Assembly: GCA_017534965.1 (NCBI GenBank) | Contig: JAFXVA010000014.1 | Span: forward strand, 1 to 32,156 | Reading direction: 5' to 3' | Source: Elusimicrobiaceae bacterium | GTDB taxonomy: Bacteria; Elusimicrobiota; Elusimicrobia; Elusimicrobiales; Elusimicrobiaceae | DNA: 32,156 nt | Shown here: positions 8,162 to 24,995 of the stretch, in pieces | Position numbering within the stretch: the first letter of the stretch is position 1 | Layout of the letters: the number at the start of each line of letters is the position of its first letter | Translations under genes and position numbers: made by a program | The notes under the pieces: generated by a model | The model's input: the letters and a program-made list of their open reading frames with translations, nothing else | The model's database searches: none | What the model was told of the DNA's origin: nothing

Positions 8162-8183
8162 ATATAAATTAGGAAAATTTTAT

Positions 8184-9350
8184 ATGACTAAAAAAAATAT
8201 TTTAATTTTTTTAAATACTTATGTTCCCGGTTATAAATCAGGCGGGCCTGTGCAAGCCATTAAAAATTTAGTTGAAAACTTGGGGGAAAGCTATAATTTT
8301 TATGTCGTTACGCGTGATAGAGATTTTGGGGAGACTAATGCTTACCCAAATATAGAATATGGTGTTTTTCAACAAGTAGGCAAAGCAAAAGTTATGTATC
8401 TAGCACCTAGGGAAAGAAATTTTAAAAACTACCTTAACATAATTAATCAAACAGATTTTGCTTTATTTTATTTACAATCCTTTTGGAATTTTAAATTTTC
8501 AATATTGCCGCTTATGGCATTATTAAAATCGGCAAAAAGAAATTTACCTGTATTGATACATCCACGCGGGGAATTTTACCCCGGCGCTTTAAAACAAAAA
8601 GCATTTAAAAAGAGATTTGTTTTGTTGCTTTGGAAAATATCGGGGCTATATAAAAAAGTCTTTTTTAACGTATCAAGTGAAGAAGAAAAACAAAATATAA
8701 TTGAATTGTTTGGTAAAGATTGTAATAAACAGATTAAAATTGCAATGGATTTTCCAAAACAATATCCGATAATTGACTATAATAAGGAATTTTCATTGCC
8801 GTTAAAATTAGTTTTTTTAGCCAGAATAGATCCTAAGAAGAACTTATTATTCCTAATAGAAATAGTAAAGAAATTAAAGATAGAAGTGTTATTGGATATT
8901 TATGCTTCTGTTTCAGATCAAGAATATTGGCAAAAATGTCAAAATGCCTTGCAAAACACCTCAAAGAATATTGCTATAAATTATAAGGGTATATTGCCAC
9001 ATAATCAAATACAAGAAGTTTTATCTAAATATGATTTATATTGTTTCTTAACTAAAGGGGAAAACTTCGGTTATACCATTCACGAAGCACTTGCAAGCGC
9101 TTTGCCCGTTATAATCAGCGATAAAACAATTTGGCACGATTTAGCAAAATATAATGCCGGGTGGGAAATTCCACTTTCAAAGCCACAAGAATTTATAGAG
9201 AAAATTAAAGAATATCAAGCAAAAACTGATAAAGAAAAACTTGCCATGCGTAAAGGCGCTTTGGCCTATGCCCAAGCAATGGCAAAAGATGAAAAAATAT
9301 TAAATGATAATAAGAATATGTTTGATTTATTGATGGAGGGGAGATGTTAA
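8184..9350 (+). CDS. Glycosyltransferase family 4
   Basis: This is a retaining GT-B enzyme that should transfer a sugar from a nucleotide donor to the growing lipid-linked repeat unit on the cytoplasmic face. The N-terminus has a glycine-rich acceptor loop, VPGYKSGGPVQAI. The C-terminal donor domain has LVFLARIDPKKNLL near 210 and ENFGYTIHEAL near 293, matching the GT4 ExFGxxxxE signature. It is 388 aa, a usual length, with no transmembrane segment. AGGAAA precedes the ATG, and its stop overlaps the CapA-like gene by 7 bases. The sugar and linkage cannot be determined. Confidence 0.85.
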   Translation: MTKKNILIFLNTYVPGYKSGGPVQAIKNLVENLGESYNFYVVTRDRDFGETNAYPNIEYGVFQQVGKAKVMYLAPRERNFKNYLNIINQTDFALFYLQSFWNFKFSILPLMALLKSAKRNLPVLIHPRGEFYPGALKQKAFKKRFVLLLWKISGLYKKVFFNVSSEEEKQNIIELFGKDCNKQIKIAMDFPKQYPIIDYNKEFSLPLKLVFLARIDPKKNLLFLIEIVKKLKIEVLLDIYASVSDQEYWQKCQNALQNTSKNIAINYKGILPHNQIQEVLSKYDLYCFLTKGENFGYTIHEALASALPVIISDKTIWHDLAKYNAGWEIPLSKPQEFIEKIKEYQAKTDKEKLAMRKGALAYAQAMAKDEKILNDNKNMFDLLMEGRC

Positions 9351-10306
9351 CTTTTGTCGGTGATTATGCCCCTTATCATAAAGTTAAATTTGATAATAAA
9401 AGTTTTCTAGTGGGCAACTTAGAGTGTGCTTTTAGTGATATTAAAGCAAATTCTTGGAAAAGTTATACAAGTGTTTTGCCTTGTAAAAATATGGATTTTA
9501 TTAAAGAAATAAATTTTTCTGCTTTATCTTTGGCAAATAATCATACTTATGATGCCGGAAATTTTGAAGAATTTTATAAAAAACTTGAAACAGAATATCC
9601 TAATATTCAATTTTTTGGCACAATAGAAAAACCTTATGTTGTGATAGAAGAGGTAGCAATTATCGGTTGTCTTGAAAAAAACAGAAGCAGGGGGGAAAAT
9701 ATTTTCCCGGAAGAAGCTGTTTTATCTTTAATAAAAAAAATAAAAAGTAAATTTTCTAAAGTATATATATATCCGCATTGGGGTAAAGAGGGGGAATATA
9801 CCCATTATCCTTCCCCAAGGCAACAAAAACTAGCACATAAGTGGATTGATGCTGGGGCAAGCGGTGTTTTTGGTAGCCATAGCCACGTCTTTCAAGGTAA
9901 GGAGATTTACAAAAATAAACCTGTTTATTATTCTTTGGGTAATTTTTATTTTCCTCATCCGGAGTCAAAAATATACCCAAATACTAATGTAGGTTTAACG
10001 TTAGAAATAGGAAATGGTATTAAGGAAAAATTTATTGAATTCAATGAAAACAAAATAGAATATATTATTGGTAAAGAAAAAGATATTCTAATTAAAATAA
10101 GTGCACCGTTAAAAAATTGGGGCTATTTTAGTTGGGCTAAATATATAGGGAAAATATACTTGAATAAAAATACTGCCTCTTGGCATATCCGTTTAAAAAA
10201 TAATTTTTTAAAAACTTTACCGTTGTTTTGTTTGTGGCAAATAATGCCAAAAACTTTATTATTTAGGATAGCAAGTTTATTTTCTGTTGAGGATAAAAAA
10301 TGCTAA
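9344..10306 (+). CDS. CapA/PgsA-like metallophosphatase-fold protein
   Basis: It belongs to the poly-gamma-glutamate capsule CapA family (calcineurin-like fold). Visible motifs are VGDYAPY at the N-terminus, GNLECAF, SLANNHTYDAG near 62-72, HWGKEGEY near 145, GSHSHVFQ near 178 and YYSLGNFYF near 196. The Asp, His and Asn residues could bind two metals. At 320 aa it is a short member and has no signal peptide or anchor, so it seems cytoplasmic, unlike the classic membrane CapA. It overlaps the GT4 gene before it by 7 bases and the ligase gene after it by 7 bases, so it belongs to the glycan pathway. Its reaction is unknown; no CapB/CapC partners are seen, so poly-glutamate synthesis is unlikely. 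Confidence 0.75.
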   Translation: MLTFVGDYAPYHKVKFDNKSFLVGNLECAFSDIKANSWKSYTSVLPCKNMDFIKEINFSALSLANNHTYDAGNFEEFYKKLETEYPNIQFFGTIEKPYVVIEEVAIIGCLEKNRSRGENIFPEEAVLSLIKKIKSKFSKVYIYPHWGKEGEYTHYPSPRQQKLAHKWIDAGASGVFGSHSHVFQGKEIYKNKPVYYSLGNFYFPHPESKIYPNTNVGLTLEIGNGIKEKFIEFNENKIEYIIGKEKDILIKISAPLKNWGYFSWAKYIGKIYLNKNTASWHIRLKNNFLKTLPLFCLWQIMPKTLLFRIASLFSVEDKKC

Positions 10307-11592
10307 AAACACTTAAAAATTTTGTTGAAAATATACCTTATCCTATCGGCAAACAACTAGCGAAAGTACCGTTTTCTTTACGCCTTGGCAATATGTATAC
10401 AAAGGAAAAGCAACTTATAAAAATTTTAAAAGATATTAATGCACAAGATGATTATATTTTGCAAGGACTTAATAAAATTTTTCAATTTGCTAAAAATAAT
10501 TTTGCTTGCTATCATAATTTATACAAACAAGCAGGGGTTTTAGATTTAGAGATAAAAACCTTTGAAGATTTTAAAAAATTACCGATAACAGATAAAGAAT
10601 TTTTTAGAAAAAATATCAGAGAATTTAATGGTTCTTATAAATTAAATACCGGTGGTACTACGGGTGAGCCGTTTATGTTTTTTATGGATAAGTTTTGCTG
10701 GGCTAGGGAATGGGCTGCTATGCACACAATTTGGGAAACTTTAGGATATAATTATCACGATTTAAAACTTACTTTAAGAGGCAAAAATATCGGAAATAAA
10801 AATTATGTGTATAATCCCGTCCATAATGAATTTATTCTTAATACTTATAAGCCTTTTAAAGAAATAAAAACATCTTTAATTTCTTTATTTAATAAATATC
10901 CTATTAAGTTTTTACATGGATACCCCTCAACTATTTACAACCTTATTTGCGAAATGGAAGAAAGTTTATCAGAAGCTCAAATAAAGCAAATTTTGTCAAA
11001 TATTAAGGGATTATTTTTATCTTCCGAGTTCCCTCTTCCTTATATGGTAGATAAATTTAAAAAATATAATTTAAATTTTGTTTCCTGGTATGGTCATAGC
11101 GAAATGTGCATATTAGCATATAATGAGGGCGAATTTACAAACACTTATAAACCATTTGCAAGTTATGGCTATGCAGAGATAGAAGAAGGTAATTTGCTTG
11201 GTACTTCTTACCGTAATTTTTCTATGCCTTTAATCAGATATAATACAGGCGATAAAGTTAATGTGATAGAAAAATCAAATAGTGGTAGATGCCTTGCTTT
11301 TGCTGTAAAAGAAGGTAGAACGGCTGATTTTGTAATAGATAAAGAAGGTGAAAATATTTCTTTAACTTCTTTGATTTTCGGTCGTCATCATAAAATTTTT
11401 GATTATGCTAAATTCGTGCAAGTAAAGCAAGAGGAAAAAGGTAAAATAACTATATATATTGTTGCAAACACTGCTTTGCCATCAGATTTAAGCAGTTTAT
11501 TTGATATGACAAATATTAATATGAAAGTAGATTTTAAAATTATTGAAAAACCTATCTTAACAAAAGCGGGTAAATTCCGCTTAAAAATTTAA
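10300..11592 (+). CDS. Phenylacetate-CoA ligase (PaaK/CapK)-like adenylate-forming enzyme
   Basis: This is an ANL-superfamily enzyme expected to activate a carboxylic acid as acyl-AMP and possibly pass it to CoA or an amine. The P-loop-like motif TGGTTGEP begins at residue 117. YGHSE near 263 and the later PLIRYNTGD motif match PaaK/CapK proteins. A conserved Lys-rich C-terminus, TKAGKFRLKI, resembles the lid with its catalytic Lys. It is 430 aa with no membrane segment. CapK-type proteins are frequent in capsule loci with unassigned substrates; acylation or amidation of a sugar or uronic acid is an inference. It overlaps the previous gene and is followed after 9 bp, with AAGGAG, by the oxidoreductase. 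Confidence 0.8.
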   Translation: MLKTLKNFVENIPYPIGKQLAKVPFSLRLGNMYTKEKQLIKILKDINAQDDYILQGLNKIFQFAKNNFACYHNLYKQAGVLDLEIKTFEDFKKLPITDKEFFRKNIREFNGSYKLNTGGTTGEPFMFFMDKFCWAREWAAMHTIWETLGYNYHDLKLTLRGKNIGNKNYVYNPVHNEFILNTYKPFKEIKTSLISLFNKYPIKFLHGYPSTIYNLICEMEESLSEAQIKQILSNIKGLFLSSEFPLPYMVDKFKKYNLNFVSWYGHSEMCILAYNEGEFTNTYKPFASYGYAEIEEGNLLGTSYRNFSMPLIRYNTGDKVNVIEKSNSGRCLAFAVKEGRTADFVIDKEGENISLTSLIFGRHHKIFDYAKFVQVKQEEKGKITIYIVANTALPSDLSSLFDMTNINMKVDFKIIEKPILTKAGKFRLKI

Positions 11593-11601
11593 GGAGAATT
11601 T

Positions 11602-13725
11602 ATGAAACAAATTATTCAGGATTTAAAAAATGGGGCAACAATTTTGGAAGAAGTGCCTATGCCACAAGTAAAGGCGGGTTATGTTTTAATTCAAACGACT
11701 AGAACCTTAGTTTCCCTTGGCACAGAGCGTATGCTTGTGGAGTTTGGCAAAGCAAATTTAATAGATAAAGCCCGCCAACAACCCGATAAAGTTAAACAAG
11801 TTTTGGATAAAATGCATACCGATGGCATTATGCCCACCTTAGAAGCAGTTTTTAATAAATTAAACCAGCCCTTGCCACTTGGTTATTGTAATGTGGGCAA
11901 AGTTATTGCTGTCGGACAAGGGGTAACAGAATTTAAAATTGGCGATAGAGTTGCCTCAAACGGAAATCATGCGGAATTTGTTTGTGTGCCTAAAAATTTA
12001 GTTGCCAAAATACCTGATAATGTTAGTGATGATGAGGCAACTTTTACTGTAATATCTTCTATTGCTTTGCAAGGCATACGCAATTTAAAACCGCAATTTG
12101 GGGAAAGTATTGTCGTTATCGGTCTTGGTCTTATAGGTTTAATTACCGCGCAACTTTTAAAAGCAAACGGTTGCCAAGTTATCGGTATTGATTATCAGCA
12201 AAGTAAAGTTGATTTAGCTAAAACCTTCGGTATTACGGCAATAAATCCGGCAAAAGACGGAAACGCTATTGAGTATGTAAAAAATCTAACAAAAGGTATT
12301 GGGGCAGATGGCGTTTTAATAACTGCTTCTACTAAAAGTGATGAAGTTATTCACGAATCTTGCGAAATGTGCCGCAAACGCGGTCGTATAATTTTGGTGG
12401 GTGTAATCGGTTTAAATATGAGGAGGGATGATTTCTATAAAAAGGAACTTACATTCCAAGTTTCCTGTTCTTACGGAGCCGGTAGATATGATGAAGAATA
12501 TGAAAACAAAGGCCATGATTACCCTCTTGCCTATGCCAGATGGACGGAAAAACGCAATTTTGAAGCAATTTTAGCGGCAATATCAAGCGGTAGTCTGCAA
12601 GTAAAACCCTTGATTTCACAAATTGTGGAACTTAAAGATTATTTACAAATTTACGGCGATATGCGTGGGGGCAGTATCGCTTCCATAATTAAATTCGCCG
12701 AAAAACCTTCACAATCAAAAACTATCTCGCTTGAAGAAGGCAAAACTTTTGCCAAAGGCAAAAATAAAATTGCCTTAATCGGTGCGGGTAATTTTGCCAG
12801 CTCCACTATTGTGCCTTGCCTTAAAAAATGTGGCGCAAAAATTAAATATATTTCAAGCGCACAAGGGTTAAGTGCAAAAATTCTTGCTAAAAAAGCAGGC
12901 GCTCAGTTTGCAACAAGCGATAATAAACAAATTTATGAAGATAAGGAAGTTGGCCTTATTATCGTCGGCACGCGCCATAATTTGCACGCAAAATTTATTT
13001 TAGAAGCACTAAAAAATAATAAAAGTGTATTTGTGGAAAAACCGCTTTGTTTAAACAAACAAGAACTTGCCGAAATTGAAGAAGCGTATAAAAAATCTTC
13101 AAAAGATTTGACAATAAATGTCGGCTTTAACCGCCGTTTTGCCCCTCTTGCAATTAAGATGAAGCAACTTTCCGGCAAAGGGCCTAAAAATATTATTGCC
13201 ACAATGAACGCCGGTTTTATTGCCCCTGAAGTTTGGGTGCAGGATTTACAAATTGGCGGTGGTCGTATTATTGGCGAGGCCTGCCATTTTATTGATTTAT
13301 GCTCTTTTATCGCAGATAGTAAAGTAGTGGAAGTTTGCATGAATGCTCTAGGGCCTAATCCGGCGGAAAATACAGATAATGCAAGCATTTTGCTTAAATA
13401 TGAAAATGGCTCAAATGCCGTTATAAATTATTTTGCCAATGGCTCAAAAAGTTATGCCAAAGAAAGAGTGGAAGTTTTTGCACAAAATTCCGTTTTAATT
13501 TTAGATAATTGGCGCAAATTAAAAGGTTACGGCGTTAAAGGTTTTACTTCCGAAAGTTCCGCTTTAGATAAAGGCCATAAGGCCGAATTTGCTTTGTTAA
13601 ACAAAAATTTGCAAGAAGGCAAAGAACCTTTAATACCTTTTGAAAGTATCAAAAATACAACGCTTGCTTCTTTTGCGTGTATAGAAAGTTTAAAACAAAA
13701 TAAATGGATTAAGGTGGAAGATTGA
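11602..13725 (+). CDS. Two-domain oxidoreductase: MDR (alcohol dehydrogenase-like) + Gfo/Idh/MocA
   Basis: This 707-aa cytoplasmic fusion has an N-terminal medium-chain dehydrogenase/reductase domain (about 1-365) with the nucleotide motif GLGLIGLITAQ near 178. The C-terminal Gfo/Idh/MocA domain (about 385-707) has GAGNF from residue 394, EKP at 479-481 and GGGRIIGEACHFID near 552. In the MDR half the usual zinc positions are changed: VSLGTE where Cys-Gly is expected, and GYC in place of GHE. It is therefore probably a non-zinc member. Such two-domain proteins recur in polysaccharide clusters next to a heparinase-like gene, exactly as here (4-base TTGA overlap). The pair presumably modifies a sugar nucleotide or lipid-linked sugar; the substrate is unknown. 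Confidence 0.85.
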   Translation: MKQIIQDLKNGATILEEVPMPQVKAGYVLIQTTRTLVSLGTERMLVEFGKANLIDKARQQPDKVKQVLDKMHTDGIMPTLEAVFNKLNQPLPLGYCNVGKVIAVGQGVTEFKIGDRVASNGNHAEFVCVPKNLVAKIPDNVSDDEATFTVISSIALQGIRNLKPQFGESIVVIGLGLIGLITAQLLKANGCQVIGIDYQQSKVDLAKTFGITAINPAKDGNAIEYVKNLTKGIGADGVLITASTKSDEVIHESCEMCRKRGRIILVGVIGLNMRRDDFYKKELTFQVSCSYGAGRYDEEYENKGHDYPLAYARWTEKRNFEAILAAISSGSLQVKPLISQIVELKDYLQIYGDMRGGSIASIIKFAEKPSQSKTISLEEGKTFAKGKNKIALIGAGNFASSTIVPCLKKCGAKIKYISSAQGLSAKILAKKAGAQFATSDNKQIYEDKEVGLIIVGTRHNLHAKFILEALKNNKSVFVEKPLCLNKQELAEIEEAYKKSSKDLTINVGFNRRFAPLAIKMKQLSGKGPKNIIATMNAGFIAPEVWVQDLQIGGGRIIGEACHFIDLCSFIADSKVVEVCMNALGPNPAENTDNASILLKYENGSNAVINYFANGSKSYAKERVEVFAQNSVLILDNWRKLKGYGVKGFTSESSALDKGHKAEFALLNKNLQEGKEPLIPFESIKNTTLASFACIESLKQNKWIKVED

Positions 13726-15314
13726 ATAAGTTTTTAAAATATTTTAACACATTAAAGTTTTTGCGTTTTGAACAATTTTACTATAGGGCTATCTTTAAAT
13801 TTTATAAACCCAAAATTGTTTTAAATGCAGGACCTTTACTTGATAAAAAATGTAAAAATGAAACTGCTTTTCCAATAAAAAACACTTCTCTTTTAGATAG
13901 CGCTAACGGGCGTTTTTGTTTTTTAAAAGAAGAGCATATAATTTCCAAAAAACAGGATTGGAATAATCATAAAATAAATAAACTTTGGCTTTATAATCTT
14001 CATTATTTTGATTTTTTGCAGCAAGAAAATTTACCTGCTAAAGACGGCGAATATTGGATAAATAAGTGGATAGAAGAAAATCCTTTTCCTATCGGCAACG
14101 GGTGGGAGCCATACCCAATATCGCTAAGAACAGTTAACTGGATTAAATGGTTTTTGCGCGGGAATAATTTAACTGCCAAACAACAAGAAAGTTTATTTAT
14201 TCAAGTGCGTTATTTAAGAAAGCGCCTAGAATATCACTTGTTTGCAAATCACTTGCTCGCAAATGCAAAAGCGCTTGTTTTTGCCGGTATGTTTTTTGAC
14301 GGCGCAGAAGCAAAAGAATGGCTTAAAAAAGGCCTGTTAATTTATAAAAGAGAATTGCCCGAGCAAATACTTAAAGACGGCGGACATTTTGAACTTTCTA
14401 CAATGTATCATAATATTATTTTAGAAGATTTACTTGATTTAAAAAATCTAGCTGTTCCCATAGAAAATCTTGATAAGTATATTTCTAAAATGTTGTTTTG
14501 GCTTTCCGCTATGATAAAAAAGGATAAGGAAATTTCTTTTTTCAACGATGCAGCACAAAATGTTGCTTTAACTCCTAAACAACTTTTTGATTATGCAGGC
14601 AAACTTAATATTAAATATGAAAAAGCGGAAACTTCCTGTAATCTTAAATATTCGGGTTATGCCCGTTTAGCAAATAATAATTGGCTTTGTTTGTGCGACG
14701 GGGCGGAAATCGGCCCGAGCTATCAAACAGGGCACTCCCATGCTGATACTTTAACTTTTGAACTTTGGTATAAAGATACAAAATTAATTACAAACAGCGG
14801 AACTAAAGAATATATCTGGGGAAAAGTGCGGGAATATCAAAGAAGCACAAAAGCCCATAATACAATAGTTATAAACAGCAAAAATTCATCTGAAGTTTGG
14901 CATTCTCACAGAACGGCAAACAGAGCGCATATTATAAATAGAGTATTCAAAGATAATATGTTTAGCGCCGAACATAACGGATATAAAAATATTACTTGCA
15001 AAAGAACTTGGCAGCTTGAAGAAAATAAAGTGATAATAGAAGATATAATAAAAAGTAAAAAAGACTTTTCGGCAGAGATATTTTTTCATTTCGTTCCCGA
15101 TATAAAAATAAAAATTATTTCTAAACAGGAAGCCGAAATTATTCAAAATAAAGATAAGTTCTTGATATCTTTTAATACAGAAGATTTTAATTTACTATTA
15201 AAAAATTTACCTATTAGTAATAATTTCGGGGAAGAACTTTTATCTCCCTGTTTAATATTAAAAACACAAGGCAAAAAAGAAAAAACTATTATTACAGAGA
15301 TAAAAAAATTATGA
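13722..15314 (+). CDS. Heparinase II/III-like (alginate lyase superfamily) protein
   Basis: It has an (alpha/alpha)-toroid N-terminal region and a heparinase II/III-type beta-sandwich. Signature GHSHAD is at 337-342, followed by LTFELW and NSGTKEY, the usual catalytic/metal-site neighbourhood. It is 530 aa. There is no signal peptide, so it should act in the cytoplasm, which is odd for a degradative lyase and suggests a biosynthetic role on uronic acid or its lipid-linked form. The start is TTG at 13722 inside the previous stop, with AAGGTGG upstream; no ATG occurs for roughly the first 200 codons, so the TTG is well supported. It overlaps the next gene by ATGA. Confidence 0.85.
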   Translation: MNKFLKYFNTLKFLRFEQFYYRAIFKFYKPKIVLNAGPLLDKKCKNETAFPIKNTSLLDSANGRFCFLKEEHIISKKQDWNNHKINKLWLYNLHYFDFLQQENLPAKDGEYWINKWIEENPFPIGNGWEPYPISLRTVNWIKWFLRGNNLTAKQQESLFIQVRYLRKRLEYHLFANHLLANAKALVFAGMFFDGAEAKEWLKKGLLIYKRELPEQILKDGGHFELSTMYHNIILEDLLDLKNLAVPIENLDKYISKMLFWLSAMIKKDKEISFFNDAAQNVALTPKQLFDYAGKLNIKYEKAETSCNLKYSGYARLANNNWLCLCDGAEIGPSYQTGHSHADTLTFELWYKDTKLITNSGTKEYIWGKVREYQRSTKAHNTIVINSKNSSEVWHSHRTANRAHIINRVFKDNMFSAEHNGYKNITCKRTWQLEENKVIIEDIIKSKKDFSAEIFFHFVPDIKIKIISKQEAEIIQNKDKFLISFNTEDFNLLLKNLPISNNFGEELLSPCLILKTQGKKEKTIITEIKKL

Positions 15315-16537
15315 ATATATTATTTTTAAGTCATTATTATTTTCCAGAAGGTAACGCCGCTGCAACAAGAGTTAGTGCTCTTGCAGGTAGATGGGTTAAA
15401 ATGGGTCATAAAGTAACAGTCGTTACTTGCGCGCCTAATGTGCCAAACGGCAAAGTTTATAGCGGTTACAAAAATAAATATACACTAGAAGATATTGAAG
15501 GGGTAAAAGTTATCCGTATTAAAACTTTTATTGCCGCAAATAAAGGCGCTTTTAAAAGAATTTTAAATTTCCTTTCTTATATGTTTAGTGCTTTTGGAAC
15601 CTGCCTTTTTATGAAAAAGCCGGATATTATAATTGCTACAAGTCCGCAATTTTTTTGCGGCTTTTGCGGGACTTTACTTAAATGGTTTAGAGGTTTTCCT
15701 TTTGTTTTGGAAATCAGAGATATCTGGCCGGAATCCATTTCTGCCGTCGGTGCAAAAGTGCCGGGTATAGGGTTAAAGTTTATTTCTGTTTTAGAAAAAT
15801 TAATGTATAAAAGTGCTTTACATATAGTAACCGTTGGCGAGGGCTATAAACAAAAACTTACTAAAGAACGTGGCGTGCCGGAAAGTAAAATTTCAATTAT
15901 TATGAATGGCGTTGATAGCACTTTATATTATCCTGGCCCGAAAAATAAAGAACTGCTTAAACAATATAATTTAGAAGGCAAATTTATCTGCAGTTATATT
16001 GGGACAATCGGTATGGCTTGTGGCTTAAAAGTGGTTTTAGAAGCAGCAAAAAATTTAAAGACAAAAGGGAAAAATGATATAGTTTTCTTATTAATTGGCG
16101 GTGGGGCTACAAAGGAAGATCTTGAAAATCAAGCCAAGGCGGAACATCTTGATAATATTTTATTTCTTGGTCTGCAACCAAAAAATAAAATTGCTTCTTG
16201 GATAAATACTTCCGATATCACTTTAGCGCATTTAATTAAAACAGATCTATTTAGAACGGTTATGCCCTCAAAAATCTTTGAAAGTGCCGGTTGCGCTAAA
16301 CCAATTTTGCTTGGGGTTCAGGGCTTTGCCGAGAAATTTGTTAAAGATAACTCTTGTGGTCTTTGTTTTGAACCGGAAAATGCTCAAGATTTAGTTGAAA
16401 AACTTTTACAACTTTATGAAAATAAAGAGTTATGTAAAACTCTTGGTGAAAACGGACTAAAAAATATTGCTACAAAATATAATAGGGATTCTCAAGCTAA
16501 AAAATATATAGAGATTTTGAATGATTATGTTAAATAG
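15311..16537 (+). CDS. Glycosyltransferase family 4, WbuB-like
   Basis: This GT-B retaining transferase resembles WbuB, the family annotated as putative N-acetyl-L-fucosaminyltransferase. Evidence is the opening LFLSHYYFPEGNAAATRV, LEIRDIWPESI near 135, NGVDSTLYYPG near 198, and the donor-site segment MPSKIFESAGCAKPI near 318. It is 408 aa; hydrophobic stretches near 80-120 probably contact the membrane. It overlaps the heparinase-like gene by ATGA. WbuB-type proteins commonly follow wecB/wecC-type pathways, which fits. Donor specificity is not provable here, and no fucosamine synthesis genes are in the window. Confidence 0.85.
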   Translation: MNILFLSHYYFPEGNAAATRVSALAGRWVKMGHKVTVVTCAPNVPNGKVYSGYKNKYTLEDIEGVKVIRIKTFIAANKGAFKRILNFLSYMFSAFGTCLFMKKPDIIIATSPQFFCGFCGTLLKWFRGFPFVLEIRDIWPESISAVGAKVPGIGLKFISVLEKLMYKSALHIVTVGEGYKQKLTKERGVPESKISIIMNGVDSTLYYPGPKNKELLKQYNLEGKFICSYIGTIGMACGLKVVLEAAKNLKTKGKNDIVFLLIGGGATKEDLENQAKAEHLDNILFLGLQPKNKIASWINTSDITLAHLIKTDLFRTVMPSKIFESAGCAKPILLGVQGFAEKFVKDNSCGLCFEPENAQDLVEKLLQLYENKELCKTLGENGLKNIATKYNRDSQAKKYIEILNDYVK

Positions 16538-16582
16538 TGATAGATATATTACTTTGGTAGAGTGATTTTTAAAGGTGATTTT

Positions 16583-17806
16583 ATGAATTATAGAATTGTG
16601 AAAAACACTTCTATGTTATATTTACTGAATGTGGCAAAAATGATTTTTCCATTTTTGACATTTCCTTATTTAACACGTGTATTAAGCGTGGATGGCTATG
16701 CTTTGGTGATGTATGTGCGTGCATTAATGCAATATATGCAAATTTGGGTGGATTTTGGATTCATGCTATCAGCCACAAAACATATTGTAAATGCCGGGAA
16801 AAATATGGAAAAAATAGGGCACTTAGTTAGTGATACAATACTAGCCCGTTTGGTTTTAGCTTTTATTGGTGGTTTTATTTTAGTTTTTGCCGTTATATTT
16901 ATTCCCTTGTTGAGTCAGAATATACTTTATACGATCTTGTCTTTTATAAGTATAATTATCTCCTGTTTTTTTGTGGATTATTTGTTTCGTGGTTTAGAAG
17001 CCATGCATGAAATCACTATTCGTTATGTGGTATTACGTGGTTTAGCCACAGTTTTTACTTTTGTATTAGTCCATTCTGACGAAGATATTTTGTTAATTCC
17101 TTGTTTAGATATAATCTCGTTTTTAATTTGTATAGTATTGGTACGTTGGCAATTAAAAAAATATAAAATTAAATTATTTTGGCCCCGTATACGCACTACT
17201 TTATTTCATTTAAAAGATTCCTTTACATATTTTATTTCAAATATTGCGACTACGGCTTTTGGGGCATTAAATACTTTATTAATTGGTATTTTTTTACCGG
17301 TGGCAAGTGTTGCAATATGGACTGTTGCAATGCAAATAATATCAGCCATTCAGATGTTATTTACCCCAATTAATAATGGTATATATCCTGAAATGGTGCG
17401 TAATAAACGATGGGGACTAATTAAAAAAACTCTATTAATATTTATGCCTTTAGTTTTAATTGGTAGTTTATTATTATATTTCTTTGCACCTCTTGCTATT
17501 AGGATTGTAGCTGGGGGAAAATATATTGATGCAGATTATTTATTACAATTATTATTACCTGTTTTGCTTCTTAGTTTTCCGGCTATGCTTTTAGGCTGGC
17601 CTTCTTTAGGGGCAATAAATAAAGTAAAACAGACTTCTTTTACTACAATTATAGCAGCTCTAGTGCAGTGTGGTGGTATTGGAATATTAATTTTATGCGG
17701 TCAATTTACTTTGTGTGCCTTAGCTATTGTGCGTTGTATTAGTGAGGGGGTATTATTTGCTACTCGCGCTTGGCTGTGTTATAAATATAGGAAGTTATTT
17801 AATTAA
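16583..17806 (+). CDS. wzx: O-unit flippase (Wzx-like, polysaccharide biosynthesis/MATE-MVF superfamily)
   Basis: It should translocate undecaprenyl-linked repeat units across the inner membrane. The 407-aa protein is almost entirely hydrophobic helices, around twelve, and opens with VKNTSMLYLLNVAKMIFPF and FPYLTRVLSVDGYALV, the typical Wzx N-terminus (FPYLxRxLGxxxYG). The start is set at ATG 16583, with AAAGGTGA 7-12 bases upstream; a GTG seven codons earlier has no such site. It pairs functionally with the Wzy-like gene upstream, defining a Wzx/Wzy-dependent pathway. Base and codon use differ from wecB/wecC, consistent with mosaic assembly of the locus. Confidence 0.88.
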   Translation: MNYRIVKNTSMLYLLNVAKMIFPFLTFPYLTRVLSVDGYALVMYVRALMQYMQIWVDFGFMLSATKHIVNAGKNMEKIGHLVSDTILARLVLAFIGGFILVFAVIFIPLLSQNILYTILSFISIIISCFFVDYLFRGLEAMHEITIRYVVLRGLATVFTFVLVHSDEDILLIPCLDIISFLICIVLVRWQLKKYKIKLFWPRIRTTLFHLKDSFTYFISNIATTAFGALNTLLIGIFLPVASVAIWTVAMQIISAIQMLFTPINNGIYPEMVRNKRWGLIKKTLLIFMPLVLIGSLLLYFFAPLAIRIVAGGKYIDADYLLQLLLPVLLLSFPAMLLGWPSLGAINKVKQTSFTTIIAALVQCGGIGILILCGQFTLCALAIVRCISEGVLFATRAWLCYKYRKLFN

Positions 17807-17836
17807 ATGATATTTGCAGTATAGTTAGGAGAATAT

Positions 17837-18658
17837 ATGGATAAAAAAACTTTAAGGAAACTACAACTCGTGCAGTTAGAAATTGCTAAAGAAATAAAGC
17901 GCGTTTGTAAAGAATATAATATCCGTTAATTTTTAACTGCAGGGACTTTACTTGGGGCTGTGCGTCATAAAGGTTTTATCCCTTGGGATGATGATTTGGA
18001 TATCGGTATGTTACAGGAAGATTACGATAAATTTTGCCAAATTGCTCCTAATGCTTTATCAAAAGAATATAAACTTGTTACTTGGAAAACAGATTCTCTC
18101 TATGCTCTCCCCTTTGGTAAAGTTTATAAAAAAGGGACAATTTTTCAAGAAAGCAAAAGTTATCAAGATAATAAAAATGGTATTTATGTCGATATTATAG
18201 TTTATAATAATGCTCCTGTTAATTCTATAACACGATATTATTTAATTAACAAATTGAGAATCTTAGAAAGACTTATTTTGATGAAAAATCACTACCGGCC
18301 TTGGATGGAAAATGATAAAATTAATTGGAGAAAACGATTTATATATTTGCCAATTCAATTTCTTTCTTGTTTTTTTACACGTAAATATCTTGTTAATAGG
18401 CATATTTCTCTAACCATAAAACAAGCAAAGACAGGTTTTGTATATGGCCCGGCAAGTTTAAAAAAAGTGCCTATCTTTCAAAGGAAAAACTTAGAAAAAA
18501 CTTCAGAGTATCCTTTTGAAGATACTAAATTTGCCATATTTGATAAAGCGCAAGATTATTTGCAGGTTGTATATGGGGATTATATGCAATTACCGCCGGA
18601 AAAAGATAGGCAAAACAAACATCAAGTTGTCAAATTGGATTTTGGAAAAGAAAAATAA
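17837..18658 (+). pseudogene. licD-family phosphotransferase gene interrupted by a nonsense codon
   Basis: Translation from ATG 17837 (AGGAG upstream) gives an intact LicD-type N-terminus, then TAA at 17927-17929 (codon 31), then the same frame continues FLTAGTLLGAVRHKGFIPWDDDLDIGM to a stop at 18658. Apart from that codon the 273-codon frame is full length and carries the nucleotidyltransferase-fold motif GTLLGAVRH and the acidic DDDLDI. LicD proteins normally have an aromatic residue at this site, so a single T/C to A change in a Tyr codon explains the stop. Restart at GTG 17960 would lose GTLLGA and give a probably inactive 232-aa product. LicD enzymes transfer phosphocholine or similar phospho-groups from CDP-activated donors to glycans. 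It could be recent inactivation or a base error. Confidence 0.85.
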
Positions 18659-18660
18659 TT

Positions 18661-19491
18661 ATGAATAAAATTGAAACTTATAGCGCACAAATTAATTCAA
18701 AGTTATATAGCTTATTAAACATGGATATATTACAAAATCCATATTTATATATTGATGTTAATACTTATGGCTTTCAGGGCAGTAATATTCAAACATATTT
18801 TGCTACTTGCGCGGAGAAAATATCTGTAATAATTTATCAGTATTATAACTCCATACAATTATTAGTTAACCAAAAGGAACTTCCAAACGAACAGACAATA
18901 AAAGAAATAGCTAATTTTATTGCTACTCGTAAAGTTATTATGGTTTCAGGGGTAACTTCCCTAATAACAAAACTAAAAACCTATTTACCCAACTATAAAC
19001 AAACAAATGGCCATCTTTTTGAATATCAAGGAAAGATTGAACAAAAACTGATAAATTTTCCTAAATTTCAATGGGCCCATAGTGAACAAGATTTTGAGCG
19101 TTTAGCAATTTTTATCACTTCTGATTCTAGTATAGGTTCCCACTATAATATTGCTCAATTAAAACAGCAACTTTTAGAGCGTCACCAAAAATATGGTTGC
19201 CAAAATGTTTTTTTAGAGGAAGATAAAAAAATAATTGCTCATGTCGGAACTTATGCTTGTTATAAGGATTTAGCCGTAATAGGTGGTTTATTGGTTGATC
19301 CAAGCCAAAGAGGTAAGGGGCTGGCTCGCAAAATAATGACTTTTATATCTTGTCAATGCGTAAAAACATTTAAACAGAAGCCAGTTTTTTATTGTTATAT
19401 TCCTGACCTCTTTAAATTTTATAAGACCTGTGATTATAAAGAAATTTACGATTGTTCAAAATTAGAATTAATAGGAGATAAAAATGCTTAA
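18661..19491 (+). CDS. GNAT-family N-acyltransferase
   Basis: This is an acetyl-CoA-dependent acyltransferase. The C-terminal half carries the GNAT fold, with the CoA pyrophosphate loop in [15 protein letters not shown] near 218-232 (Q/RxxGxG/A) after beta-strand LAVIGGLL. The N-terminal ~130 residues are not a standard GNAT domain and resemble the extension seen in two-part GNAT proteins. It is 276 aa. It follows licD by 2 bp and overlaps the aminotransferase by 8 bases, implying that it acylates the amine made by that enzyme or another intermediate of the same side pathway. That role is inference; the acceptor is unknown. Confidence 0.75.
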
Positions 19492-20557
19492 TTTTACAGT
19501 AGGTCCCGTTCAATCTTCCGAAGAAATTTGTAATATCGGTTCAGAACAAGTTCCATATTTTAGGACTGCTGAATTTTCTAAAATTATGTTGGAAAACGAA
19601 CAGCTGATGTTGAAATTTTCTAATGCGCCGAAAGATTCTCGCGCCGTATTTCTAACAGGTTCCGGCACAGCTTCTATGGAGGCAGCTGTAATTAATACTC
19701 TTACTTCTTCTGATAAAGTCCTTATTGTCAATGGGGGAAGTTTTGGTCATCGTTTTGTTGAAATTTGCAAAACATATAATATCCCTTATGATGAAATTAA
19801 ACTTTCTTTTGGTGAAGCATTGAAAGAAAAACACTTAAATCTATATGACGGCAAAGGTTATACGGCTTTTTTGGTAAATATTCACGAAACTTCTACCGGC
19901 GTTTATTATGATATAGATTTAATTAGCAGTTTCTGCCGTAAAAATAATCTGTTTTTAATTGTGGATGCTATTAGTTCTTTTTTGGCTGATCCTTTTGATA
20001 TGTCTGCCTGCGGAGCAGATATAATGCTTACAGGATCGCAGAAAGCCCTTGCTTGCCCGCCGGGGATATCTATTATGGTTTTAAGTCCTAAAGCCTTAGC
20101 CAGAATTGTTAAATCTAAAACTCCGTGTTATTATTTAGATTTAAAAAGTGCTTTGAAAAATGGCGAACGTGGGCAAACCCCATTTACTCCTGCTGTCGGT
20201 ATTCTTAGACAAATACATGCTAGATTAAAAAATATTGAAAGAGAAGGCGGAGCCCAAGAGGAAATCAAGAGAGTAGCTGCCCTAGCAAAAGATTTTAGAA
20301 ATAAAATTAAAGATTTGCCTTTTGAGATAGTTTCAGAGTCTATGTCTAATGCCGTAACGCCTTTACATCCCAAAAATGTTAGTGCTTATGATATCTTTCT
20401 TAAATTAAAAGATGAATATGATATTTGGATTTGTCCAAATGGCGGAGAATTAAAAGATAAAATATTTAGAGTGGGCCATATAGGAGCACTTACGGCTAAG
20501 GATAATGATGTTTTAATTGCAGCATTTAGAGATTTACAAAAAAAAGGAGTTTTGTAA
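19484..20557 (+). CDS. Class V PLP-dependent aminotransferase (AEP-transaminase/alanine-glyoxylate-like)
   Basis: This is a fold-type I aminotransferase. The Schiff-base Lys is K187 in [22 protein letters not shown] near 64 and GGSFGHR near 85 form the cofactor phosphate site, and the opening [12 protein letters not shown] is typical of this subgroup. It is 357 aa. Relatives include 2-aminoethylphosphonate:pyruvate and alanine:glyoxylate aminotransferases, but no PEP mutase or phosphonopyruvate decarboxylase gene is nearby, so a phosphonate product is not established. AGGAGA lies 4-5 bases before the ATG. It is placed between a GNAT gene and a CTP-transferase fusion, so it probably aminates a small phospho-alcohol-derived carbonyl for LicD-type transfer. 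Confidence 0.85.
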
Positions 20558-20560
20558 ATT

Positions 20561-21895
20561 ATGAAAAAAGTTATAACCTATGGAACTTATGATTTATTAC
20601 ATTATGGGCATATTCATCTATTAGAACGCGCCAAAGCTTTGGGGGATTATCTTATAGTTGGCATAACTTCTGAGGCCTTTGATAAAGCGCGCGGTAAAAT
20701 AAATGTTCAACAATCTCTTATGGAAAGAATTGCCGCCGTTCGTGCAACAGGCCTGGCAGATAAGATAATTGTAGAAGAATATGAAGGGCAAAAAATAGAT
20801 GATATACAGCGTTATGATGTTGATGTTTTTGCTATAGGTTCCGATTGGAAAGATAAATTTGATTATTTAAAGGAATATTGTCAGGTCGTTTATTTAGATA
20901 GAACAGAAGGGGTATCTTCCTCAGATATAAGAACAGAACAACGCCAGGTTAAATTAGGTTTAGTAGGAGATCCTAGATATTTGTTAAAAATCAGTCGCGA
21001 AAGTAAGTTCGTTAATGGTCTAGTGGTAACTGCTATTTGCACTAATACTCCAAAAGAAAATATTGTTCTGCCACAGGAAAATTTATTTATTACACAAGAT
21101 TATTCCAAAATGCTTAAGGAAGTGGATGCTATTTATTTAATTTCTCATCCAAGCCGTCACTATGACCAAATTAAACAAGCCTTACTTGCCGGCAAACATG
21201 TATTGTGCGAAGCTCCTTTAACAATAAAAATAGCTGAATTTGACGAGCTGACAGAATTAGCACAAAAACAGAAATGTATTTTTATGCCGGCACTAAAAAC
21301 GGCTTATTCCATGGCTTATTATAGGTTAATCTTACTTGCTAAGACGGGGAAAATAGGGAAAATTGTATCTGTTGATGCTACCTGCACCAGTCTTCAAGAA
21401 AAGGATTCCATTAACTTAAATACCACTTGGAACAGTCTTTGTTATTGGGGACCTGCGGCCTTATTACCAGTGTTTCAATTATTAGGTACAGAATATAAAG
21501 ATAAGAATATAGTATCGCAGTTTTTTGATAAAAAAGAATTATTTGATAATTTTACTAAAATAGATTTTTATTATCCTGATGCTGTTGCCTCTATTAAAGT
21601 AGGTAAAGGTGTTAAATCAGAAGGGGAACTTATTATTTCCGGCACTAAAGGGTATATTTTTGTTCCTGCCCCTTGGTGGAAAACAGATTATTTTGAAATC
21701 CGCTATGAAGACCCTAACCAAAACCGCCGTTATTTTTATCAATTAGAAGGCGAAGGCATACGCTATGAACTTGTTAGTTTTGTTAAAGCTATAACTAGCG
21801 GACGTTCTTTTACTTATATAGATTCTTCCGTTTCTCGTGCCATGTGTGGCATTATGGAAGATTTTTATGCCCATAAATTAAAAGAAATAAATTAA
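20561..21895 (+). CDS. Cytidylyltransferase (TagD-like) fused to a degenerate Gfo/Idh/MocA domain
   Basis: The N-terminal ~128 residues are a glycerol-3-phosphate-type cytidylyltransferase: GTYDLLHYGH (residues 8-17, HxGH) and RTEGVSSSDIR (114-124), both nucleotide-binding signatures. It should load a phosphorylated compound with CMP. From about residue 131 a Gfo/Idh/MocA-like domain follows, but its dinucleotide loop is only GLVGDPR and the usual EKP is EAP (217-219), lacking the conserved Lys. That half may therefore be altered or non-redox. It is 444 aa. It is the last gene of the operon, 3 bp after the aminotransferase, with AAAGGAG inside that gene's end. Its likely product is a CDP-linked donor for LicD. 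Confidence 0.8.
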   Translation: MKKVITYGTYDLLHYGHIHLLERAKALGDYLIVGITSEAFDKARGKINVQQSLMERIAAVRATGLADKIIVEEYEGQKIDDIQRYDVDVFAIGSDWKDKFDYLKEYCQVVYLDRTEGVSSSDIRTEQRQVKLGLVGDPRYLLKISRESKFVNGLVVTAICTNTPKENIVLPQENLFITQDYSKMLKEVDAIYLISHPSRHYDQIKQALLAGKHVLCEAPLTIKIAEFDELTELAQKQKCIFMPALKTAYSMAYYRLILLAKTGKIGKIVSVDATCTSLQEKDSINLNTTWNSLCYWGPAALLPVFQLLGTEYKDKNIVSQFFDKKELFDNFTKIDFYYPDAVASIKVGKGVKSEGELIISGTKGYIFVPAPWWKTDYFEIRYEDPNQNRRYFYQLEGEGIRYELVSFVKAITSGRSFTYIDSSVSRAMCGIMEDFYAHKLKEIN

Positions 21896-21928
21896 AATTA
21901 AGCCTCGTTTAAAAGCGAGGCTTAATTT
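21895..21928. terminator. Bidirectional rho-independent terminator ending the glycan operon
   Basis: There is a perfect 13-bp inverted repeat (21895-21907 and 21916-21928) around an 8-base loop, with core AAGCCTCG/CGAGGCTT. T-rich tracts follow on both strands. On the plus strand it ends the wecC-to-cytidylyltransferase operon; on the minus strand it ends the three-gene cassette that starts near 23690. The 21896-22124 gap between longer genes thus holds this terminator and one small gene. Confidence 0.88.
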
Positions 21929-21951: not shown

Positions 21952-22116
21952 TTAGGTTAAATGCCAAAAAGCTAATGCTTCTTGTAAACTCTCAAATTCT
22001 ACAAACTCACCAGCTCTAGGGCCGATTGCTTCGTGGCACTCAAGAACATCATATCTCTTGCTTTCTTCCTTGTTTATATACTCCCCTTCGTCATTTGGTA
22101 TTAAAAGATATTTCAT
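21952..22116 (-). CDS. Small hypothetical protein (54 aa), end of phage-like cassette
   Basis: On the minus strand an ATG at 22116 opens a 54-codon frame beginning MKYLLIPNDEGEYINKEES and ending in TAA at 21952. TAGGAGC, 5 bases upstream, is a good ribosome-binding site; it begins at the TAG stop of the preceding 395-aa gene, so the two are probably coupled. The product is acidic and soluble, with no signal or transmembrane segment. I do not recognise a family. Position, strand, ribosome-binding site and the terminator just downstream all support a real gene. Confidence 0.65.
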   Translation of the reverse strand: MKYLLIPNDEGEYINKEESKRYDVLECHEAIGPRAGEFVEFESLQEALAFWHLT

Positions 22117-22124
22117 AAATGCTC

Positions 22125-23312
22125 CTATTTAGTTATAGTCCAACCCTTTGCGGTGGCAATGGCTTCATCATCGGCGGTTAAATCGCTTGCGCCTGTTGCG
22201 CCCACAATGCTGATAATTTGCCCTGCACTAACAATAGGCAAATCATTAAACAGTTGCACTAAAGCATTTCTGTCTAGGCCTGTCCTAGAAACATTTATTT
22301 GAGGTGGTGTAGCATTATTAAATGGGGCTTGATTTGATACACGCAAACCTTTAAGTCCGCCCATAAAACGAGGGGCCGTTGCGTAAGTTCCTATTTTAGT
22401 TAAATTTACTCCTTCGCTAGTATCTAATACTATATCTTCTAAACTTGTATCGTCAAATAATACAAGGTTTGCATTTGTTGCGGAAGTGAAATTAAGTTTA
22501 GGAAAAGATTTTAAATTATAGCAAGATTGAAATGCGCCAGAAAAAGTAGTGCAATTAGGTGTTTTTAGACTTCCTTTCACTCTTTCAATACCTGATATAT
22601 AAAAAAGATATTGCATAGTCGTAAAGTTAGTATTTTCAAATCTTACTTCTTTTATAGCAGATGTCTGATAAAAAACGCCGTAAGCAGTCATAGAAATATT
22701 TTGGCAGTCAAGAACAGGAACATAAGTTAAACTTGTTGCCCTTAAAAACAAACTATCAATACCGCTTAATTTAAGAGTATTATTTTTAGCGGTGCAGGCC
22801 TGCATAAGAGGTTGTTTATAATAGTTATATCGCCCGAAACCTTGATATAGATTTATTGAATTAGTTAAATTAAAATGCGCCCACAATACGCCTTGCTCCT
22901 CTTCACTACTTTCTACAATTCTTGCACAATGAAAAGTATTTATACTTTCATTTTCTGTTTGTGGGTAAATATCAATTATATGGGCTTTTGTTGCGCCTGT
23001 TGGTTCACTTATATCATAGCCTGGGGTATCGGTATAATCTTCCCAATCAGCCATAGAAAATTGGGCATTACTTGCATAATCTGCATAAGGTGTTCCGTCA
23101 ATAGCAACGGAATATCCTGCTGTTGTTGTTACAACAAATCCTATTGGGTAGCGTGTATCTACCAGCAAATAAACATGCCCTTCTTCTGCATTTTTTCTAA
23201 TATCGGGCCAACTTTCGGGTTTGTTCTTCCAATCGTTTTTCCCGGTATTTTCTACTGAAGTTTGTAAAGTAATAGTTTCTTCGTTTATATATTCTGGAGA
23301 AATATCTTTCAT
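22125..23312 (-). CDS. Phage-tail-associated-like leucine-rich-repeat (BspA-type) protein
   Basis: This 395-aa protein has no signal peptide or membrane segment. Its N-terminal ~150 residues form an unassigned domain rich in Tyr, Asp and Thr. Residues ~185-330 carry irregular repeats of the BspA/LRR_5 kind, for example LTYVPVLDC, IKEVRFENTNF, LKSFPKLNF and LEDIVLDTS. The C-terminus, with LDRNALVQLFNDLP and AIATAKGWTITK, matches an ending I know from phage tail or baseplate-associated and other LRR surface proteins. CGGAGAAA precedes the ATG. It lies 12 bp after the 99-aa phage-like gene. A receptor-binding or adhesion role is possible; lack of a signal peptide argues against an ordinary host adhesin. 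Confidence 0.6.
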   Translation of the reverse strand: MKDISPEYINEETITLQTSVENTGKNDWKNKPESWPDIRKNAEEGHVYLLVDTRYPIGFVVTTTAGYSVAIDGTPYADYASNAQFSMADWEDYTDTPGYDISEPTGATKAHIIDIYPQTENESINTFHCARIVESSEEEQGVLWAHFNLTNSINLYQGFGRYNYYKQPLMQACTAKNNTLKLSGIDSLFLRATSLTYVPVLDCQNISMTAYGVFYQTSAIKEVRFENTNFTTMQYLFYISGIERVKGSLKTPNCTTFSGAFQSCYNLKSFPKLNFTSATNANLVLFDDTSLEDIVLDTSEGVNLTKIGTYATAPRFMGGLKGLRVSNQAPFNNATPPQINVSRTGLDRNALVQLFNDLPIVSAGQIISIVGATGASDLTADDEAIATAKGWTITK

Positions 23313-23324
23313 AAAATTTCTCCG

Positions 23325-23624
23325 CTATTGAATAGAAATTTTTAAATCTTCCGAGCTAACTCCTGTTAAATCAACTCTTAAATATAAATCTACAAAATTT
23401 ATATAAATTATTTTATTGGCAACTAGTTCAATCTGCTCGCCTTCTTCGTTATATAAGGGGTAAAAGTTTACTTTGTCTTGGGATACTTCTAGTTTAGGGG
23501 TGCCAGTAAAAGTTCCTGTAGTTAAAATGCTTAAATATCTAATAGGGCCTTTATGCAAAGCTAATTCTTTGATATTTACTATTTCGTTTGTTGTAGGACT
23601 GGTAGATAAATCTGTAATAATCAT
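23325..23624 (-). CDS. Small phage-structural-like hypothetical protein
   Basis: This 99-aa protein is predicted mostly beta, with a central TTGTFTGTPKLEVSQDKVNFY segment. The pattern is 'tolerance/measurement'-like, recalling small beta-sandwich proteins encoded next to phage tail-fibre genes. There is no signal peptide. AAAGGAG, 8-9 bases before the ATG at 23624, and a consensus promoter upstream make it the first gene of the minus-strand cassette. I cannot assign a precise function; the phage link is inferred from sequence flavour and from the downstream tail-like gene. Confidence 0.55.
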   Translation of the reverse strand: MIITDLSTSPTTNEIVNIKELALHKGPIRYLSILTTGTFTGTPKLEVSQDKVNFYPLYNEEGEQIELVANKIIYINFVDLYLRVDLTGVSSEDLKISIQ

Positions 23625-23668
23625 AAAAAAGAACTCCTTTATGATTTTAAACGGCTCTACCTTATTTA

Positions 23669-23697
23669 ATTATAGCAAATTTCGTCTGAGATATCAA
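23669..23697 (-). promoter_or_regulatory. Consensus sigma70-type promoter of the phage-like cassette
   Basis: On the minus strand TTGATA (23692-23697) and TATAAT (23669-23674) are separated by exactly 17 bp, the best -35/-10 pair found in the window. It lies 45 bases upstream of the 99-aa gene start, so the cassette has its own strong, apparently constitutive promoter. Confidence 0.75.
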
Positions 23698-23882: not shown

Positions 23883-24995
23883 ATGACGGAAAATTATAAA
23901 AATTTAATTGTCGGCGCCGGCATCAGTGGGGCAGTTTTAGCCCGCTTACTGGCCGAAAAAGGCCAAAGTGTTCTTGTTATAGATAGGCGTAGCCATATCG
24001 GCGGTAACTGCTATGATTTTTTAGATGAAAACGGCCTAAATATTCATAAATACGGCCCGCATATTTTTAGAACAGATAAAGAAGAAGTCTGGCAGTTTCT
24101 ATCGCGCTTTACTTCTTGGCAGGAATATAAACACAAAGTTCGCGCTAAAATTGATGGCAAAGAGGTGCCTATTCCGTTTAATTTTACCTCTATAGATGCT
24201 TTATTCGATGCACAAAAAGCCCAAGTTTTTAAAGAAAAACTTATTTCAAATTACGGCGAAAACAAGAAAGTTCCAATTTTAGAATTAAAAAAATCTGCCG
24301 ATAAAGATTTACAAGAACTTGCCGATTATGTTTATGAAAAAGTTTTTTATCACTATACTTTAAAACAATGGGATTTAAAACCCGAAGAGCTTGAAGGCGA
24401 TGCTCTTGCAAGAGTGCCTGTTTATACGGGTTATTACGACGGCTATTTTACCGAAAAATACCAAGCCATACCAAAGTTTGGTTATACTAAAATGTTTGAA
24501 AATATTTTAAATCATCCTAATATAAAAGTTCAACTTAACACTGATTTTAAAGATTTAAAAGATATTAGTTGCGAACGCATGTGTTATAGTGGTTCTATCG
24601 ACGAATTTTTTGATTATAAATTTGGACCCTTGCCTTACCGCAGTTTAAATTTTGAATTAAAAACTTTAGAGCAAGAAAAATTTCAAAGTGTAGCAGTTGT
24701 TAATTATACCGGCAAAGAACCCTATACCAGAATAACCGAATTTAAACATTTTTTAAATCAAAAATCGCCAAAAACAACTATTGCCTATGAGTATCCCACT
24801 GCTTTTGAACTTGGTAAAAATGAAAGATATTATCCTATCCCCAAACAAGAAAACGAGCAGCTATATCAACAATATTTAAAACTTTCCCAAAAACAAAAAA
24901 ATCTTTATTTTATCGGTCGTTTGGGGGAGTATAAATATTATAGTATGCAAAGTGCAATTTTAGCCGTTTTTGAATTGTTTAAAAAAATAATCTAA
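23883..24995 (+). CDS. glf: UDP-galactopyranose mutase
   Basis: This flavoenzyme converts UDP-galactopyranose to UDP-galactofuranose, the Galf donor for surface glycans. The FAD-binding motif VGAGISGAVLA starts near residue 10. IGGNCYD and KYGPHIFRTD, near 43-64, match the Glf active-site region, and the C-terminal YKYYSMQSAI motif closes the FAD site. The start at ATG 23883 gives 370 aa, the usual length. Upstream extension to TTG 23817 would add an unneeded hydrophobic leader. The ribosome-binding site is poor (AAAGAGG about 17 bases away). It lies outside the main glycan operon, past the phage-like cassette; a weak -10 (TATACT, 23837-23842) may serve it. Confidence 0.92.
   Translation: MTENYKNLIVGAGISGAVLARLLAEKGQSVLVIDRRSHIGGNCYDFLDENGLNIHKYGPHIFRTDKEEVWQFLSRFTSWQEYKHKVRAKIDGKEVPIPFNFTSIDALFDAQKAQVFKEKLISNYGENKKVPILELKKSADKDLQELADYVYEKVFYHYTLKQWDLKPEELEGDALARVPVYTGYYDGYFTEKYQAIPKFGYTKMFENILNHPNIKVQLNTDFKDLKDISCERMCYSGSIDEFFDYKFGPLPYRSLNFELKTLEQEKFQSVAVVNYTGKEPYTRITEFKHFLNQKSPKTTIAYEYPTAFELGKNERYYPIPKQENEQLYQQYLKLSQKQKNLYFIGRLGEYKYYSMQSAILAVFELFKKII

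Follow-up and report, generated by a model that had tools for sequence, protein, structure and literature searches.

The 32,156-nt stretch of Elusimicrobiaceae DNA analyzed here (contig JAFXVA010000014.1 of assembly GCA_017534965.1; hereafter, the window) carries a cassette of three minus-strand genes, A, B and C, between a surface-glycan operon and glf. We propose, with a probability of about 0.7, that this cassette serves as the receptor-binding module for a particle resembling a gene transfer agent (GTA), which the genus inherits vertically and encodes at dispersed loci. The genome of the window is designated G000, and its genus, g1, is represented by 18 genomes including G000; g2 to g6 are other genera of the family, g6 being a sister genus.

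A first-pass annotation of this DNA had described three genes with good ribosome-binding sites on the strand opposite their neighbors, a consensus promoter and a perfect bidirectional terminator. All of these were found where it had placed them. It had overlooked a terminator-like hairpin at 23661-23625, directly before the ATG of A. The three open reading frames, in the order A-B-C, are each preceded by a GGAG-type ribosome-binding site, and the flanking genes on both sides lie on the plus strand. The features are as follows.

23697-23669, minus strand: extended -10 promoter, TTGATA-17-TATAAT, with 11 of 12 consensus matches
23625-23661, minus strand: leader GGTAGAGCCGTTTAAAATCATAAAGGAGTTCTTTTTT, a terminator-like hairpin that abuts the A start codon and includes the A ribosome-binding site (leader model, folding)
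23325-23624, minus strand: gene A, 99 aa, predicted tail-fiber partner, with homologues in 12 other g1 genomes
22125-23312, minus strand: gene B, 395 aa, predicted tail-fiber receptor-binding protein (homology, model, Foldseek)
21952-22116, minus strand: gene C, 54 aa, putative small fiber-associated protein (homologues behind fibers)
21895-21928, both strands: bidirectional intrinsic terminator common to the glycan operon and the cassette
4414-21895, plus strand: surface-glycan operon (WecC, WecB, polymerase-like, transferases, flippase, LicD and others; open reading frames named by inspection)
23883-24995, plus strand: glf, UDP-galactopyranose mutase, the next gene beyond the cassette promoter (open reading frame call)

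A scan of 3 kb gave 17 promoter-like sites (chance expectation, 11.9), of which only this promoter reached 11/12. Most of the relatives' cassettes have aTTTGCTATAwT at the corresponding position. The shared terminator is perfect, with 15 pairs on the plus strand and 13 on the minus strand, and is one of 5 terminator-like sites versus 2.0 expected.

Cassette proteins and their glycan-locus setting

None of the three proteins matched a Pfam or PHROGs family above the cut-off: A gave a sub-threshold match to DUF3986 only, and B scored 16.8 bits against Pfam LRR_5, below the cut-off of 27.7. The profile search that the first-pass annotation had proposed as a check on its phage-structural reading thus gave no phage family, and it was the related genomes that supplied prophage homologues. 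Searches of the PDB by sequence and by fold returned nothing significant. Scans of viral contigs found no relatives, those of genome contigs found a single weak one, and phage records gave weak partial matches only. The model of B was confident, with a predicted local distance difference test score (pLDDT) of 91.8, and consists of a beta domain, a variable middle resembling leucine-rich repeats (LRR; residues about 170-290) and a conserved C terminus (about 291-395). Foldseek matched it to phage BspA/LRR surface proteins, with a best E value of 2.8e-12. The model of A was of medium confidence only (pLDDT, 72).

Homologues of B in g6 are the C-terminal parts of longer tail fibers within podoviral clusters that also encode a GP7 capsid, a podoviral portal, tail proteins and an endolysin. 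B itself lacks the region matching PHROG 1640, the N-terminal virion-anchoring domain of the g6 fibers. Homologues of C follow the fiber by 4 to 9 nt in the g6 prophages, and in seven g1 genomes they start -19 to +17 nt from the end of B. A homologue of A with 55% identity lies directly upstream of a 483-aa fiber in podoviral prophages of G013 and G014 (L107, L108). Since homologues also lie in prophages, they are not limited to chromosomal, non-phage contexts, and the refuting condition that the first-pass annotation had set for itself does not hold. Together, these contexts and the fold of B identify the cassette as a tail-fiber unit and A, B and C, by sequence, as phage tail-fiber proteins. 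B would be the receptor-binding protein of the fiber, A is possibly the adaptor joining the fiber to the tail, and C may perhaps be a small fiber-associated assembly factor. Separately, some fiber proteins contain an inserted, possibly LamG-like domain at differing positions (L033 9547-11016; L032 15862-17604; L045-L047). Such insertions in both cassettes and g6 prophages point to domain shuffling between them.

A was present in 13 of the 18 g1 genomes, and in 11 of these, including G000, an intact B lay directly behind it. In all 11, A and B stand alone and occur once per genome. The first-pass annotation had asked whether the same cassette recurs at other loci, and it does so in these genomes, always at a glycan locus; its suggestion of cargo dropped there fits poorly with this constancy and with the purifying selection on A (ratio of nonsynonymous to synonymous substitution rates, dN/dS, 0.06-0.24). 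In G016, A was found at a contig end. G004 retains A beside glf, followed by a different protein of 216 aa in place of B (L112 12160-13124). The absence of C from four genomes and the failure to find the cassette in G005 and several incomplete genomes could be read as signs of a decaying prophage remnant without function. The joint occurrence of A and B in 11 genomes, the wider retention of A, its low dN/dS and the preservation of leader stems with altered sequences (see below) make such a remnant scarcely credible.

All cassettes with both A and B lie at a surface-glycan locus (gene names by inspection), either adjoining or near glf, beside Wzb/ligase/Wza/Wzc-like genes or, in G009, beside sugar-nucleotide genes. 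In G002, G004, G006, G010, G013 and G014, glf lies next to the cassette or close to it. Within this setting, the alleles of B appear to track glycan-gene content and not phylogeny. Between G001 and G011, identity is 96% for the capsid and hub and 93% for A but only 43% for B, with a synonymous divergence (dS) of 2.9 for B versus 0.2-0.4, and the polymerase and transferases of the two genomes differ. The more distant G007 and G017 have glycan genes in common (78-89% identity), and their B proteins, at 70%, are the closest. As judged from these alignments, B is a fast-changing, exchangeable allele within the surface-glycan locus. The pattern fits a receptor-binding protein suited to whichever glycan is made locally, and it is suggestive at most because the covariation comes from a single clade, of four genomes.

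Phages commonly use surface glycans as receptors. The position of the cassette would also suit fiber genes co-opted to act as a decoy in the cytoplasm or at the surface or as another phage-defense factor, a role that the first-pass annotation had raised and for which we found nothing specific (no defense-library search was made). We consider recruitment for defense very unlikely: the leader of the cassette is that of particle genes, no Pfam family for a secreted or defense protein was matched above the cut-off, and a decoy would account for neither A and C nor the shared regulation. What stands of the earlier interpretation is a domesticated tail-fiber module that lies at a glycan locus and probably has a role in receptor binding; its self-contained, cargo and defense aspects were not supported.

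The dispersed HK97-type element

The genome of the window has a single gene each for an HK97 capsid, an HK97 portal and a terminase, all outside the cassette, and no podoviral portal was found in it. The cassette is thus not the self-contained unit that had been supposed, since the particle genes lie elsewhere in the same genome and their unusual leader is common to it. In G000, contig 41 carries a capsid-tail module (capsid, adaptor, neck, major tail, chaperone, short tape measure and a 780-aa hub), and contig 13 carries the portal-protease and TerS-TerL genes. The families are capsid PF05065/PHROG10, portal PF04860, prohead protease PF04586 and TerL PF04466, and the element also matches head-tail, tail and tape-measure PHROGs. 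The set of capsid, portal and terminase is conserved in all 11 g1 genomes that are at least 90% complete; G006 and G017 carry an ordinary siphoprophage in addition.

The capsid gene is single-copy in g1 to g5, with 60 to 100% identity when distant prophage capsids are set aside, and it is absent from g6 save for distant prophage-type matches. Its identity falls as taxonomic distance grows. A tree of the capsid alone recovers g2 and the g1 subclades and leaves several forks open. In g1 as in g2, FeoB lies beside the tail module, and G018 carries the same module. The HK97 genes are contiguous in g3 and g5 (L103 in G019, L102 in G021) and split in g1, suggesting that the element was dispersed within the family. 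The dN/dS values of 0.03-0.06 for the capsid and 0.05-0.18 for the hub indicate purifying selection. Both g2 and g4 have a peptidase-type endolysin gene within the tail module (L099 10205-10678, PHROG 894; L104 17474-17905); none was found in that of G000 or G001.

GTAs are defined by particle proteins derived from tailed phages, full endogenization, often at multiple loci, and vertical inheritance with host co-diversification (PMC9662315). They further package mostly random host DNA in a particle too small for the entire element and deliver DNA to other cells (PMC9662315). In g1, the particle genes are of tailed-phage origin by similarity, the portal, TerL and capsid lie in separate places, and the capsid and tail module are inherited vertically while B itself is exchanged. 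These traits characterize the HK97 element as a probable vertically inherited, dispersed, siphovirus-type, GTA-like viriform. Its dispersal likely makes the particle unable to contain the whole element.

Instead, the cassette could supply an alternative fiber to visiting prophages or form part of a tail-only bacteriocin (tailocin), its leader being common to the particle genes by chance or ancestry. The homologue of A in podoviral prophages of two genomes and the homology of B to prophage fibers fit this. The content of G000 does not, with its single capsid, portal and terminase and its lack of a podoviral portal, and the leader is confined to the particle modules and the cassette. A tailocin would be a tail without DNA-packaging genes, and the conserved element holds capsid, protease, portal and terminase genes that a tailocin does not need. 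Overall, this explanation seems unlikely.

We also considered the g6-type podoviral cluster as the particle served by the cassette and rejected it because its capsid is absent from g1. In g6, this cluster (GP7 capsid, portal, tail and fiber) was found at L034-L036, L039, L041, L042 and L045-L047. Its capsid occurs once per genome in 11 of 12 g6 genomes checked, is 86-91% identical and occupies a few shared chromosomal places. The cluster is perhaps a second, independent GTA-like element that replaced the HK97 one.

Shared leaders and a candidate regulatory RNA

The cassette and the particle modules have similar promoter-proximal sequences. The motif aTTTGCTATAwT lies upstream of the portal, TerS and, in most genomes, A; the capsid has another promoter. 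In each of these four cases the promoter is followed by GGGAGAGCCGYC or a variant, which mostly opens a hairpin ending in a U-run. The cassette leader comprises the 37 bases before the ATG of A and forms such a hairpin. Among relatives these hairpins are strong, with folding free energies (dG) down to -15.8 kcal/mol and z scores to -6.5. Their stems are kept despite changed sequences and differing 3' arms, which MAFFT aligned poorly.

Across 0.98 Mb of DNA from the genus, a strict pattern, TTTGCTA-N6-16-GRRAGWGC, matched 11 times, 5 before A and 6 before the portal. As this pattern was written with both groups already known, we made a blind test with a model trained solely on portal and TerS leaders. 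The A leaders took ranks one to seven among its matches in 259 kb of cassette loci; in the window, the cassette leader was the best match, a weak one (11.0 bits; E value, 0.11). A hairpin scan of 1.06 Mb placed 25 of 25 GG-arm leader hairpins at the portal (9), capsid (7) or A (9), and nine weaker hairpins lay elsewhere. Bare GRGAGAGYCGYC, searched with one mismatch, proved not selective.

The palindrome TTTGATACAKTYGTATCAG occurs at the capsid promoter and, in most genomes, at one further conserved site, between a gene for a CI-like repressor (HTH_3, weak Peptidase_S24, PHROG 4) and a two-gene operon. The leader of this operon is an RNA of five helices whose stems covary, and Rfam offered no credible family for it. 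This RNA carries an invariant element, GAGACGGCTCTCCC, that reads as the reverse complement of the arm in the module leaders and stands in antisense orientation in all 11 genomes in which the locus was located. Predicted duplexes between this seed and the leaders reached -19.7 kcal/mol for A, -23.0 for the capsid and -20.8 for the portal, versus -11.6 ± 3.0 for 256 other upstream regions, a complementarity noticed with the leader motif already known. In the window, AGAGCCGTTT (23658-23649) is complementary to the relatives' seed, with a duplex energy of -19.9 kcal/mol against the same background. The operon's two small genes (about 102 and 120-163 aa; L193, L196, L207, L210-L217) have no family assignment, and in several genomes the locus adjoins the acetate kinase gene. 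In g2, G025 has a similar CI-like gene with GATAC half-sites nearby (L164), possibly a related regulator.

We infer from this complementarity that the RNA may open the module leaders in trans. Once the CI-like repressor left its operators at the capsid operon and the regulator locus, the structured RNA would be made. Its invariant GAGACGGCUCUCCC would pair with the GGGAGAGCCGYC arm of each leader and open the hairpin, allowing joint expression of the portal, terminase, capsid-tail and fiber modules. A would then link B to the tail, with C aiding the folding of B. B would bind the glycan made by the neighboring genes, and particles with their DNA cargo would consequently reach mainly cells of the same glycan type. 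The full combination, a GTA whose receptor-binding gene is inherited beside the receptor genes in a greenbeard-like manner and whose modules are released by one structured trans-acting RNA, is put forward tentatively, at less than even odds.

Within the GTA interpretation, GGGAGAGCCGYC might instead be a DNA site for a protein activator or a Q-like antiterminator. Its position just downstream of the promoter suits such a site, and a protein antiterminator controls the Caulobacter GTA (PMC11150451). The retention of leader hairpins with differing 3' arms and the antisense element within a covarying structured RNA, in all 11 genomes where the regulator was located, weigh against this. We regard a protein-binding site as a serious possibility that falls short of being probable.

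Weighing the interpretation and comparison with known systems

Several observations weigh against assigning the cassette to a GTA-like particle. The particle is known here from its genes, from which its formation, DNA transfer, binding and antitermination are predicted. By inspection, no fiber gene was recognized in the HK97 tail module, whose last small genes have no assignment. G005, a 91% complete genome, has the capsid and terminase without a detected cassette, and neither A nor B turned up in the other genera of the family bearing the same capsid module, so that those particles must use another fiber or none. To these add the four genomes missing C and the single clade behind the glycan covariation. 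Regulation is likewise uneven. The leader hairpin of the window itself is weak (dG, -6.5 kcal/mol; z score, -1.7) and deviates from the tight motif, the capsid leaders of G002, G010 and G014 lack a hairpin, and some genomes of the genus show weak pairing with the TerS leader. No regulator locus was detected in G000, where 646 kb of 1.32 Mb was covered for the RNA, and the operator search found only the capsid site in G000, G013 and G014.

If the proposal is true, a fiber gene at a glycan locus would make ligand and receptor a single inherited unit, DNA exchange would favor cells of the same glycan type, and the question of who receives GTA DNA would become testable. The shared leader and complementary RNA suggest how chromosomally scattered genes may be switched on as a single virus-like program, and the leader sequence offers a tag for locating further modules. 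In the literature searched, we found no report of a GTA in Elusimicrobia and no description, for any GTA, of shared hairpin leaders or of a putative trans-acting RNA. The new parts are the location of the fiber gene, the shared leaders and the RNA.

The cassette resembles the T7 gp17-like podoviral fibers of the g6 prophages in that B corresponds to their C-terminal receptor-binding part and C likewise follows it. Unlike those fibers, which begin with a PHROG 1640 region, B has no N-terminal anchor domain, and A is the first gene of the unit.

RcGTA, the GTA of Rhodobacter capsulatus, has an HK97-type head and a short tape measure, and both are encoded here too. Its tail fiber, rcc00171, and a head-spike fiber bind capsular polysaccharide (PMC10218006). 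Host-encoded tailed-phage particle genes spread over several loci and a link between fiber and polysaccharide are common to both systems, the latter deduced here from genes. Our element differs in belonging to another phylum, in having its fiber gene at a glycan-synthesis locus and in the exchange of its receptor-binding part.

In the Caulobacter CcGTA, GafY and GafZ mediate antitermination, GafZ being a protein antiterminator that acts on one cluster (PMC11150451). There, GTA genes are shown to be turned on through a repressor and read-through of terminators, as we propose here. Unlike in CcGTA, each dispersed module of g1 has a hairpin of its own, and the candidate regulator is an RNA.

The Brachyspira BhGTA/VSH-1 and the Bartonella BaGTA are independently domesticated tailed-phage elements, and the genes of BhGTA are likely dispersed over several loci (PMC9662315). 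The g1 element appears to be a further domesticated tailed-phage element, dispersed as BhGTA likely is. Compared with BhGTA and BaGTA, a fiber gene at a glycan locus and shared leaders are its distinctive features.
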